Assembly: GCA_001871075.1 (NCBI GenBank)
Contig: MNUP01000135.1
Location: 1-16,815, forward strand
Length of the DNA stretch: 16,815 bases
Reading direction: 5' to 3'
Source of the DNA: Candidatus Desantisbacteria bacterium CG1_02_49_89
GTDB lineage: Bacteria > Desantisbacteria > UBA1551
This document shows positions 348 through 16,389 of the stretch, piece after piece. A model generated the notes under the pieces. That model ran no database searches. It saw only the letters and a program-made list of their open reading frames with translations, and was not told where the DNA came from. The position numbers were made by a program, and so were the translations under genes. Each line of letters opens with the position of its first letter. Position 1 is the stretch's first letter.

Positions 348-436
348 GGAGAGGTGGCCGAGTGGCTTAAGGCAGGCGCCTGCTAAGCGTCTAGTCCCTT
401 TATCGGGTCTCCCGGGTTCGAATCCCGGCCTCTCCG
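348..436 (+). tRNA. tRNA-Ser (anticodon GCU)
   Basis: The sequence folds as a class II tRNA. The acceptor GGAGAGG (348-354) pairs with CCTCTCC (429-435), discriminator G436. A short D arm is followed by an anticodon stem GGCGC/GCGTC around loop CTGCTAA, so the anticodon is GCT and reads AGC/AGU serine codons. A long variable arm follows, typical of serine tRNA, then a T arm CCGGG-TTCGAAT-CCCGG. No CCA is encoded; it would be added after transcription. The gene is downstream of the consensus promoter at 189-217. Its last 18 bases plus two following bases recur at 708-727. Confidence 0.95.
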
Positions 437-438
437 TA
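419..438 (+). repeat. att-like direct repeat, copy 1 (inside tRNA-Ser 3' end)
   Basis: CGAATCCCGGCCTCTCCGTA covers the T loop to just past the tRNA 3' end and is repeated without change at 708-727. Homology between the two places starts sharply inside the T loop, the same position many integrases use as attB in tRNA genes. No integrase is present in the window. Confidence 0.65.
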
Positions 439-458
439 TTTTTCCCGAAGGGAAAAAT
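438..458 (+). terminator. Possible tRNA terminator hairpin
   Basis: ATTTTTCCC (438-446), loop GAA, GGGAAAAAT (450-458) forms a perfect 9-bp stem two bases after the tRNA. It lacks a clean T tract on the 3' side, so it may be a processing signal or a weak terminator. A second perfect palindrome (GTCCCGATG-TAA-CATCGGGAC, 462-482) follows at once. Confidence 0.4.
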
Positions 459-461
459 GGA

Positions 462-522
462 GTCCCGATGTAACATCGGGACGGTCTATTGCTCTATTCT
501 CCATTTTCAGTAGCAGGGATTC
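462..522 (+). repeat. Post-tRNA module copy 1: palindrome plus 40-nt tail
   Basis: A GTCCCGAT...ATCGGGAC palindrome (462-482) is followed by a 40-nt tail (483-522) matching 804-842 with few differences; the last 20 bases (503-522 versus 823-842) are identical. With copy 1 of the tRNA-end repeat it makes a module repeated at 708-842. The structured RNA-like insert begins at 523. Confidence 0.6.
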
Positions 523-707
523 GAAAGGCACTTTCCGCCACTGGGTGAGTGGTCGCCTGAATAAAGGCGACCGTGCTACGAACGCCGCCGAGATGGTGAG
601 GCGGCTGGAAAAGCGAGTCCGACAAAGAGGACGAGCGGCAGGAAAGTGCCCCGGCTCCGGGTAAATCCGAAACTGTAACCCAGTTCTATTGAGGATTTAC
701 AAAGGAC
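523..707 (+). ncRNA. Candidate structured non-coding RNA of unknown class
   Basis: This segment is packed with mutually consistent helices. A closing helix pairs 527-539 with 637-650 (13 bp, one bulged A at 640). Inside it lie hairpins 551-558/565-572 (8 bp), 584-589/600-605 (6 bp, GC only) and 613-620/629-636, the last holding tandem G-A/A-G mismatches between a GC clamp and GTCC/GGAC. Outside it, 661-668 pairs with 693-700 (8 bp) and encloses 671-675/681-685. No convincing protein frame covers it. The boundaries are sharp: it fills exactly the space between two copies of the tRNA-end module. The short mobile structured form recalls ORF-less HEARO (IscB omegaRNA)-type elements, but I cannot confirm that family from sequence memory. 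It is not a recognisable RNase P, tmRNA, SRP or 6S RNA. Confidence 0.5.
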
Positions 708-725
708 CGAATCCCGGCCTCTCCG

Positions 726-727
<2 letters not shown>
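708..727 (+). repeat. att-like direct repeat, copy 2 (tRNA-Ser 3' end duplicate)
   Basis: An exact 20-bp copy of 419-438, without the rest of a tRNA upstream. It lies 289 bp downstream of copy 1 and directly after the structured RNA-like segment. It can be an attachment-site remnant or one border of a tandem duplication. Confidence 0.65.
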
Positions 728-3946
<3,219 letters not shown>

Positions 3947-6720: not shown

Positions 6721-6900
6721 ATACAGTGGTCAGTGGTTAGTTAGTGGATAGCGGGTAGCGGTTGCAATGTAGGGGCTCAATTCATTGAGCCCGGGATCGC
6801 GTAGGGGCGACCTTGGTCGCCCGAAGATCATTGCGACCCGCCGTCGAGGCGGGGAAGCAATCTTGTAGCTGCAGGGCTTGCCCTGCAAATAGGGGCGCAA
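6721..6900. repeat. Spacer filled with palindromic repeats
   Basis: Three palindromes follow each other: GGGCTCAA-TTCA-TTGAGCCC (6773-6792), GGGCGACC-TT-GGTCGCCC (6805-6822), and the GCAGGGC-TT-GCCCTGC unit (6871-6886) that recurs five more times in this window. The segments start with variants of GTAGGGGC or GTAGCTGC, which suggests several related short repeat units in tandem. No gene or clear promoter is seen. Further copies of the 22-bp unit are at 7852-7873, 10074-10095, 10122-10143, 10221-10242 and 10320-10341. Confidence 0.75.
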
Positions 6901-7710: not shown

Positions 7711-7925
7711 GACAGTGTCCAGTGGCCCGCCCCTTCGGCGGGTCGCCATGCCTCGTCGGCAGGTCGCCGAAGTGGTGACCGTAGTGGCGACCAGTATCCA
7801 GCAAATAATTTTAAATTTCAAATTGCAAATTTCAAATTGCAAATTGAAGGAGTAGCTGCAGGGCTTGCCCTGCTATTTTGAATAAAAATTCTATTTCCTT
7901 CATTGTAAATTGATAAGGAGAAAAG
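7711..7925. repeat. Spacer with AT-rich tandem repeat and 61-bp repeat before the helicase
   Basis: A GC-rich palindromic stretch (7723-7790) is followed by tandem AAATTTCAAATTGC-type repeats (about 7811-7846). Next comes a REP-like unit inside a 61-bp segment (7852-7912) that is identical to 10221-10281. The last bases, ATAAGGAG, hold the helicase ribosome binding site. No gene is seen. Confidence 0.7.
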
Positions 7926-9320: not shown

Positions 9321-10070
9321 ATGGAAAAGAAATGGAAGAGACCAGACATATCCATCCCCGTTAAATACAGGATCATAAGCGGGGGAACGGGCGGGAGTAA
9401 CGGAACCGGGGCGGCAGTTATGCCGGATGGCGCTATTTTAAACGCAGAGGAAGACCTGCTGAAAATGCTTATCGAGAAGGGAGCGCGCGCCGGGGACAGG
9501 ATCGAAGTTGAAATGGAGATCTTCGAGCTGCTGAAAGACAACCGTTTTACGGCGGATATCATACAATTGCAGGAAGACAAGCCGGGTTTTGAGACAGCTG
9601 TTTTAAAGATAAGGGAAATGCTGGGGAAAAACCGCAGGATGTTCCTGGAGCGTATTTCCGAGATGCAGACCGAAACGGAGTTGAGGGGTGAAAAGAAGGA
9701 AAAAAGGATCTGGGCGAGAGTGGAGACATTTCTAAACGTTAAATATGATATTATCGCCCACGAGGGAGACGCGATAGACGTTGATTCCGTTGAGCCGCGC
9801 GCGGAGCTTCCTTATTACGGCAGGATACTGGACATAAGCGAGGGCGGGCTTAAATTTTTTAAGGACACGAACAGCGTTGTCCGGATCGGGGATGTCCTGG
9901 AAATCCTTTCTGATATACCGAATATCTCTGAGGACCAGCGCTTCTTTATAAAAACCGTGGCAGACAGGGGCGAGGCGAAAAGGGGCGGTCTGTTCGGATG
10001 TGTCTTTTTGAAAGTCAAAAAAACCCTGCGAGACCGTATAATCGATTACATCGCCAGGAAAAGTGGGTAG
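9321..10070 (+). CDS. PilZ-domain protein (c-di-GMP effector), with a second degenerate PilZ-like half
   Basis: A 249-residue cytoplasmic protein. The C-terminal half (about 125-245) has both c-di-GMP-binding motifs of PilZ: RxxxR as RIWAR (129-133) and D/NxSxxG as DISEGG (171-176), followed by the beta strands GDVLEILSD and GCVFLKV. The N-terminal half begins KRPDISIPVKYRI and continues GDRIEVEMEIFE...FTADIIQLQED. This looks like a PilZ barrel that lost the RxxxR and DxSxxG motifs, so the protein may be a tandem with one binding domain. A charged helix (about 85-128) links the halves. The start follows GGGAGG. The gene is alone, so its output target (motility, polysaccharide or other) is not indicated. 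Confidence 0.8.
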   Translation: MEKKWKRPDISIPVKYRIISGGTGGSNGTGAAVMPDGAILNAEEDLLKMLIEKGARAGDRIEVEMEIFELLKDNRFTADIIQLQEDKPGFETAVLKIREMLGKNRRMFLERISEMQTETELRGEKKEKRIWARVETFLNVKYDIIAHEGDAIDVDSVEPRAELPYYGRILDISEGGLKFFKDTNSVVRIGDVLEILSDIPNISEDQRFFIKTVADRGEAKRGGLFGCVFLKVKKTLRDRIIDYIARKSG

Positions 10071-10367
10071 TTTGTAGCTGCAGGGCTTGCCCTGCTAATG
10101 CAGTCGTAGGGCAAGGTTTTTGTAGCTGCAGGGCTTGCCCTGCTATGTAGCGGTCCCGATTTACCTGTCCGCCAGTTAGTTTGGAGGATCGGGACAATCT
10201 TGTCATTATCTATGTAGTTTGTAGCTGCAGGGCTTGCCCTGCTATTTTGAATAAAAATTCTATTTCCTTCATTGTAAATTGTTAATTGTAAATTTTAAAT
10301 TGATAAGCGAAGCAATTTTGTAGCTGCAGGGCTTGCCCTGCTATGTAGTTATTATCCGGGAGCGTAT
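10071..10367. repeat. Repeat cluster before ychF
   Basis: Four copies of the REP-like unit built on GCAGGGC-TT-GCCCTGC lie here (10074-10095, 10122-10143, 10221-10242, 10320-10341). There is also a GTCCCGAT...ATCGGGAC palindrome (10153-10195) like those after the tRNA. The third unit continues into a 61-bp stretch identical to 7852-7912, followed by AATTGTAAATT-type repeats. The ychF ribosome binding site GGGAG sits at 10358-10362. No gene is seen. Confidence 0.8.
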
Positions 10368-12471: not shown

Positions 12472-12587
12472 TGTAAATTGTAATCAAAAATTGACCCACC
12501 TTGTAATGACAATTGACCCGTCTTTTATATTGTAGGAGTGGGTCAAACCAGATTACAATATGGGTCAAAGATGCATTACTATTGACA
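12472..12587. mobile_element. 116-bp MITE-like element, copy 1, with IS21-like double-motif ends
   Basis: The element starts TGT and ends ACA. Its left 51 bp and the reverse complement of its right 51 bp align without gaps; both contain two spaced copies of a GTAAT block followed by TTGACCC. About 14 bp lie between the arms. Ends with repeated internal sites and TG...CA borders are typical of IS21-family ends, so this looks like a fused end-to-end deletion derivative. The right terminus is TTGACA, a perfect outward -35 box. The second copy (16274-16389) differs at one base. I see no target-site duplication. Confidence 0.7.
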
Positions 12588-16115: not shown

Positions 16116-16337
16116 ATGAAAAAACTAATCTTGATCTCATTGTTAGTATTATTAGCGGCAACTGCCTATGCACAAGATACAAAGACTACTGCTGCGGTTA
16201 TGGATTTAACTGCTGAGCAGGGAGTTTCCGCAGGTACAGCAAAGGCACTTTCAGACTATTTGCGAGTCCAGCTTGTAAATTGTAATCAAAAATTGACCCA
16301 CCTTGTAATGACAATTGACCCGTCTTTTATATTGTAG
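16116..16337 (+). pseudogene. CsgG/FlgO-like exported protein, truncated after about 52 codons by the 116-bp element
   Basis: The first 52 codons give a signal peptide (MKKLILISLLVLLAATAYA, predicted cut before Gln20), then AAVMDLTAEQGVSAGTAKALSDYLRVQL. This looks like the opening strand and helix of CsgG/FlgO-type proteins (VAVLDL...GVS..EA.ALSD.LR). At 16274 the 116-bp element begins, and the frame runs on in element sequence to a stop at 16335-16337. The gene has a good SD (AAGGAG 16102-16107) and promoter, so a short exported peptide might still be made. The rest of the gene is absent on both sides of the element. Confidence 0.65.
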
Positions 16338-16389
16338 GAGTGGGTCAAACCAGATTACAATATGGGTCAAAGATGCATTATTATTGACA
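16274..16389. mobile_element. 116-bp MITE-like element, copy 2
   Basis: Same orientation as copy 1 (12472-12587), 1802+2000 bp further on (offset 3802), identical except one base near its right end (C12579 versus T16381). The same paired ends and outward TTGACA terminus are present. Its left edge cuts the CsgG/FlgO-like gene. Its right edge abuts the tail of the transposase remnant at 16390. No target duplication is seen around this copy or around the pair. Confidence 0.7.

Follow-up and report, generated by a model that had tools for sequence, protein, structure and literature searches.

What is the compact, protein-less segment downstream of a serine tRNA gene in Candidatus Desantisbacteria bacterium CG1_02_49_89, and how did it come to lie between copies of the end of that tRNA? 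The segment belongs to a stretch of 16,815 nucleotides that was analysed as a whole (the window). The element occupies positions 516-727 of the window and is a compact structured element, with a fold z of about -5.2 to -5.5. Positions 523-707 fold at -78.5 kcal/mol compared with -56 +/- 4 for dinucleotide shuffles (z -5.5), and 0 of 200 shuffles are as good, confirming the claim of the initial annotation that pairing is far above that of an ordinary spacer. For 513-727 the values are z -5.2 on the plus strand and z -5.15 on the minus strand, so the strand is not picked by energy alone. The annotation was also right that no protein explains the segment, as no ORF in the window is confined to 516-727. 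Rfam models at gathering thresholds match only tRNA in the window. With E values up to 10, the element gives only tRNA-derived and chance matches, and no mobile-RNA family is among them.

The right border of the element had been placed correctly, while the left border lies further out. Positions 708-727 are identical to 419-438, the part of tRNA-Ser(GCU) from the T-loop to the 3' end, which makes the right border at 708 exact. The true left border is 516 and not 523, since 516-525 is the reverse complement of the T-loop and the 3' strand of the T-stem of the tRNA. Pairing of 516-523 with 708-715 forms an outer helix, P1, which closes the whole element and had been missed. Inside it, nine base pairs of a proposed 13-bp closing helix are conserved in relatives (527-535/642-650), followed by a CGCCA bulge and a CTG/CAG pairing (541-543/639-641), while the extra GCC/GGC pairing is peculiar to the window copy. 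The hairpin with tandem G-A mismatches at 613-636 is real, and relatives carry G-A or Watson-Crick pairs there. The two tRNA-derived modules that were said to flank the segment are mixtures: the tRNA 3'-end copies belong to the element, while a separate repeat (GAGTCCCGATGTAACATCGGGACGGTCTATTGCTC...), common after tRNAs in this genome, had been included with them. The features are listed in Table 1. The overlapping helices of the 3' domain possibly represent a pseudoknot or alternative pairings, and the degenerate inverted T-arm at 836-845 is read as what is left of a tandem unit of the kind present at L165, L174, and L179.

Table 1. Features of the element and its surroundings in the window. 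Individual loci have L-numbers; G000 is the source genome of the window.
Feature	Position	Strand	Basis
Intact tRNA-Ser(GCU), host tRNA gene	348..436	+	ARAGORN; Rfam RF00005, 54.8 bits
Target segment, T-loop C56 to tRNA 3' end plus TA	419..438	+	Identical to 708-727 (repeat family D9)
Spacer: terminator-like hairpin and a repeat found after many tRNAs	437..515	+	Copies across G000
Inverted tRNA T-arm copy (GGGATTCGAA), P1 5' strand	516..525	+	Inverted match to tRNA positions 70-79; pairs with 708-715
Helix P2 5' strand	527..535	+	9/9 pairs in window, L092 and L078, with compensatory differences
CTG pairing with CAG 639-641, above conserved CGCCA bulge	541..543	+	CGCCACTGG..CAG kept in relatives
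Hairpin, conserved GAATAA loop	551..572	+	L065: loop unchanged, stem different; also in L169
Hairpin, loop GA-GAWGGT-GA (tandem G-A mismatches)	584..605	+	Loop constant, stems changed in three copies
Apical hairpin, tandem G-A mismatches	613..636	+	Homologous to hairpins of L092 and L078
Helix P2 3' strand	642..650	+	Pairs with 527-535
3' domain: CCGGCTCCGG, then overlapping helices 659-664/676-681 and 661-668/693-700	651..707	+	Both kept in L092 and L078 despite sequence changes
Second tRNA-Ser 3' end copy; 708-715 is P1 3' strand	708..727	+	Repeat and inverted-match comparison
Degenerate second inverted T-arm (GGGATTCTAA) inside repeat 813-846	836..845	+	Repeat family D7

The window contains several other repeats. 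A repeat with a terminator-like hairpin (GAGTCCCGATGTAACATCGGGACGGTCTATTGCTCTATTCTCC or GAGCAATAGAGAATAGAGC) is found at 441-510 and 728-835, and it trails many tRNA genes throughout G000. A REP-like repeat, GTAGCTGCAGGGCTTGCCCTGCTA, consists of GTAG followed by a hairpin and has six copies (6861-6893, 7848-7880, and 10070-10348). There is also a direct repeat of 116 nt, 99% identical, with copies 3.8 kb apart at 12472-12587 and 16274-16389.

The element is not unique but is one copy of a dispersed family. Relatives immediately follow many different tRNA genes in G000, in Ca. Desantisbacteria CG1_02_38_46 (G001), and in Omnitrophota. The order of parts is constant: an intact tRNA, a spacer, an inverted copy of the T-arm of that tRNA, a folded core, and a direct copy of the 3' end of that tRNA beginning at T-loop position C56. 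The inverted T-arm and the direct 3'-end copy pair as P1, and both match each host tRNA. The ends are therefore copied from the adjacent tRNA in both orientations, a feature that the initial annotation did not detect. The junction is at C56, or at R57 or A58 in a few copies. The direct repeat extends 18-21 nt from C56 to the tRNA 3' end, where identity usually stops. The elements are about 100-300 nt long and protein-less, and they are always near the tRNA and on its strand.

Within Desantisbacteria, the layout is shared by several cores. Core copies in G000 follow tRNA-Leu (L032/L078) and tRNA-Pro (L031/L065), and G001 has three core copies, after tRNA-Lys, tRNA-Leu, and tRNA-Gly, all in one cluster. 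A survey of all 84 tRNAs in the two genomes found one layout and several unrelated-looking cores, some of them truncated. Three more T-loop elements (L064, L075, and L093) have the layout unchanged and cores unlike that of the window; those of L064 and L075 contain TCGAAC-AAGGGARCGCARYTCCCTT-GCGGAAT. On the 5' side of tRNAs, G000 also has elements arranged as mirror images (L033, L041, L076, L079, L082, L083, and L086). In these, the 5' part of the tRNA is copied as far as the D-loop or anticodon loop, a core resembling GTC..GACATCACTTATGTC..GAC GGGTGGAAGAG..CACCCAGGA comes next, and the intact tRNA follows. At L079, the last part of the element is the anticodon stem, copied in inverted orientation. 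Short GIY-YIG ORFs are clustered at tRNA genes as well (L115, L117, L122, L123, and L124, and in Omnitrophota L138, L143, and L158), and a partial tRNA copy frequently lies on the opposite side.

The window-type core is narrowly distributed. When 84,980 genomes were scanned for its patterns, one more convincing copy emerged, on an Omnitrophota contig (L056). Eight other matches in the genome collection were not counted, since no tRNA was found in their loci; they come from Halomonas, Krumholzibacteriia, Alloalcanivorax, Cytophagales, Prevotella, a gammaproteobacterium, and two Phycisphaerae. Phycisphaerae Bin_14R has two dispersed copies of GCGGCTCGCCACTGGTAAAGCGGRCTTGGATGCCTGCGTCAGAGCCGCTC (L053 and L059) with the CGCCACTGGTAAAGC..GCGTCAG motif of the window core, a short hairpin, in a locus without a tRNA. 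A covariance model of the window-type core (R1) matches only the source lineage and one Omnitrophota locus, so it is unsuited to gauging breadth. Exact window-core patterns have no match in viral contigs, and a DNA similarity search of phage and plasmid collections found no match to the element.

In Omnitrophota, loci with GIY-YIG genes led to elements of identical layout with a different core. The most constant motif of this core, GCGACCTNATGGGAGC, is a hairpin with tandem G-A mismatches. It has 19 matches in 10 of 285 Omnitrophota genomes, compared with 0 for a reversed-pattern control, and 17 of the 19 have a tRNA on the same strand no more than about 330 nt upstream, representing nine amino-acid families. 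Outside Omnitrophota (386 diverse genomes and viral contigs) the motif has 15 matches, none near a tRNA, and these serve as a negative control. A second covariance model, R2, was built from eight Omnitrophota cores with P1 and all tRNA sequence left out. On 12 genomes it has 58 matches, spread over nine of them. Of the 55 that entered the analysis, 42 lie no more than 600 nt downstream of a tRNA on the same strand, 39 of them no more than 130 nt, and several of the others are at contig ends or decayed. Matches to R2 are found in 23 of the 285 Omnitrophota genomes and in none of the 386 diverse genomes. Nineteen further loci come from genomes previously unseen; 13 of these have a tRNA upstream, and several others start near a contig end. 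At L180, a group I intron (positions 1163-1374, 83 bits) is present just upstream of an element, apparently within a tRNA gene.

The two arms of P1 match each other copy by copy. Among 38 scorable copies, 249 of 304 positions are Watson-Crick between the left and right arms, while 10,000 re-pairings among copies gave a mean of 189 and a maximum of 213. The P1 mismatches have no G-U bias, so P1 may be a decaying side effect of insertion, and selection on P1 as an RNA helix is not claimed. The mismatch pattern fits an arm that was perfect at insertion and decayed later.

The Omnitrophota core has compensatory changes beyond chance, as expected of a structured RNA. Changes on both sides are found in 25 of 27 core pairs among 38 aligned copies, and the covariation score is 0.527 compared with 0.155 for shuffled and about 0.05 for slid controls. 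The alignment behind these values was fitted to the R2 model, and this fitting favours the structure. In the core type of the window, only a few copies have compensatory differences. The ratio of G-U to A-C in core helices is 13:3 in the 16 best copies and 19:13 in weaker copies, and in tRNA acceptor stems at element loci it is 29:1. The G-U excess in core helices favours a structure of the sense strand and does not separate RNA from single-stranded DNA.

Occupation of orthologous tRNAs differs between related genomes. The main evidence of gain and loss within the lineage of the window is the Arg-Lys-Leu-Gly cluster, where Lys and Gly are empty in G000 and occupied in G001, and Leu is occupied by different cores. 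In the Thr-Tyr-Gly cluster of two Omnitrophota species (G059 and G225), one is occupied at Thr and Tyr and the other at Tyr (with a different core) and Gly. Tandem copies at L165, L174, and L179 share a block consisting of the tRNA 3' part, the flank, and the inverted arm. Polymorphism is seen between species; no excised or within-species polymorphic copies were seen, which counts against mobility.

The cores represented by the window and by R2 are probably modular cores within one element class. R2 has no match in G000 or G001, so the two cores are not one sequence family. Four links connect them. They have identical T-loop insertion geometry. The window, L065, and Omnitrophota L169 share a module of two hairpins whose loops, GAATAA and GAWGGT, are conserved and whose stems have changed. 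Desantisbacteria type B also has in common with one group of Omnitrophota elements the sequence GGTGGCCGRCY, located after domain 1. Finally, the left flanks of L056 and L180 are near-identical, while the core is window-like in L056 and R2-like in L180. Judging from these flanks, the two are apparently one Omnitrophota locus with swapped cores.

Several known ways of inserting DNA at tRNA genes could produce part of this pattern. The T-loop and the tRNA 3' end are classic integrase targets, and the elements could be internally deleted, non-autonomous relatives of tyrosine-integrase elements, mobilised by an integrase located elsewhere. The T-stem/loop would be attB and the 18-21 nt repeat the att identity block. 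The target, the usual end of repeat identity at the tRNA 3' end, the direct repeats at the tRNA, and the restored tRNA all agree with this, and they are also what the family shares with the tyrosine-recombinase elements that have att sites in the T-loop or anticodon loop of tRNA genes. At the right junction identity begins at C56, so that T54 and T55 of a full 7-nt overlap are missing there. However, an integrase normally needs one fixed overlap, and here one core is found at many different tRNAs, with its own matching ends at each. The tRNA-matched inverted T-arm and the covarying core are left unexplained, and there is no integrase within the elements, whose 100-300 nt cores have no room for a gene. 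This origin seems unlikely. We give a similarly low rating to hitchhiking on GIY-YIG homing endonucleases, which would cut tRNA genes and have the break repaired with a cassette bearing the tRNA half that restores the gene. G000 has seven short GIY-YIG ORFs, five of them within about 450 nt of a tRNA, the ORF of L083 lies between tRNA-Ser and a tRNA-Ser 3' copy, and Omnitrophota have similar loci; partial tRNA copies and a restored tRNA are common to these cassettes and the elements. In contrast to the cassettes, the elements are structured, lack an ORF, and join at C56, while the L069 and L083 cassettes join the tRNA copy at T60/C61. GIY-YIG cassettes are also mostly on the 5' side of tRNAs, and a tRNA is present at just 8 of 30 Omnitrophota GIY-YIG loci. 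GIY-YIG ORFs cluster at the same tRNAs and are a candidate for the T-loop cut, not a proven agent.

Three further explanations, in which the element is a host RNA, an omegaRNA, or an intron, are less probable. A host RNA that acts in cis on tRNA maturation and spread by tRNA duplication, without being mobile, would account for the conserved structure and the constant strand and closeness to the tRNA. It is very unlikely given that one core is found at non-homologous tRNAs and is missing from orthologous ones, and that elements are often beyond a terminator-like hairpin (as in the window and L165). The initial annotation suggested an ORF-less HEARO/IscB-type omegaRNA. In an IscB/TnpB-type system the inverted T-arm would be a 5' guide, the core an omegaRNA scaffold, and the nuclease supplied in trans. 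The OMEGA RNAs of IscB elements are likewise protein-less structured inserts with a possible 5'-side guide, and the inverted arm has a sharp edge next to the core and a fuzzy one (9-14 nt) at its other end, which recalls a seed and guide. But neither HEARO nor another mobile-RNA model matches the window element at E values up to 10, the Omnitrophota copies (18 loci) have no Rfam match at gathering, no ORF of an IscB/TnpB nuclease was noticed next to the elements, and both ends here are tRNA-derived, leaving little probability for such a system. A group I-like self-splicing intron in the T-loop is the least probable reading. GAA with GGRNTC complements the continuous T-loop junction in the manner of an internal guide sequence, but the upstream tRNA is already complete, and Intron_gpI does not match the element at E values up to 10, although the library does detect the tRNA-linked intron of L180. 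Membership in HEARO or group I introns is thus not supported. Integron attC sites were considered and rejected. They are also imperfect palindromes bounded by inverted boxes, but the R' box GTTRRRY is lacking at the crossover (right junctions are, for example, GTAGGAGG|CRANNCC), the boxes are tRNA-specific, and there is no cassette gene. REP/MITE and IS200/IS605-derived elements are non-autonomous hairpins too, and target pairing by short guide sequences is a feature of IS200/IS605. The present elements differ from them in their tRNA specificity, their tRNA-derived direct repeat of about 18-21 nt, and their larger covarying core.

The best explanation, to which we assign a probability of about 0.7, is a new family of non-autonomous mobile elements that are specific for the tRNA T-loop and mobilised in trans by a putative enzyme, with window 516-727 as one copy. 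The suggestion of a new mobile RNA in the initial annotation comes close to this. It was to be abandoned if homologues with compensatory changes were lacking; such homologues were found, as were dispersed copies sharing the same borders, so it survives. The RNA form is plausible rather than proven, because it could be single-stranded DNA that is active. The family is apparently undescribed. Literature searches, mostly of open-access papers, found no description of such an element, and we know of no element in which a protein-less core that covaries occurs together with specificity for the T-loop of many different tRNAs and with ends that match the target in both orientations.

Under the preferred reading of a mobile family, insertion at the T-loop would duplicate the tRNA 3' end, so that the upstream tRNA stays intact. 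The element carries the inverted T-arm, and pairing of this arm with the second 3'-end copy closes it. The element probably moves as a folded strand, either RNA or single-stranded DNA, and a trans-acting candidate enzyme would cut tRNA genes in the T-loop, where the folded intermediate would be inserted. The most speculative step is that the inverted T-arm may be more than one side of a structural helix and may act as a guide that pairs with the target and is acquired or rewritten whenever the element inserts. Its sharp and fuzzy sides resemble those of a guide and its seed, but the arm could also have arisen by template switching during insertion or by palindrome correction. We therefore offer only tentatively, as a doubtful possibility, a class of self-retargeting mobile elements, in which a structured RNA or single-stranded DNA would be guided by its 5' arm to the T-loop of one tRNA, the arm would be rewritten for each new tRNA, and the tRNA would be regenerated so that insertion is harmless.

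The matched ends and the tRNA that is always intact suggest an unfamiliar, harmless way of moving in a genome. The results also carry a warning that tRNA flanks in both phyla contain false tRNA fragments and overlooked RNAs. They make it testable which enzyme would read the inverted T-arm and whether changing the arm changes the target. If the explanation is right, Omnitrophota and Ca. Desantisbacteria, two little-known phyla, harbour a large family of elements whose ends are copied from the adjoining tRNA and which leave that tRNA intact.
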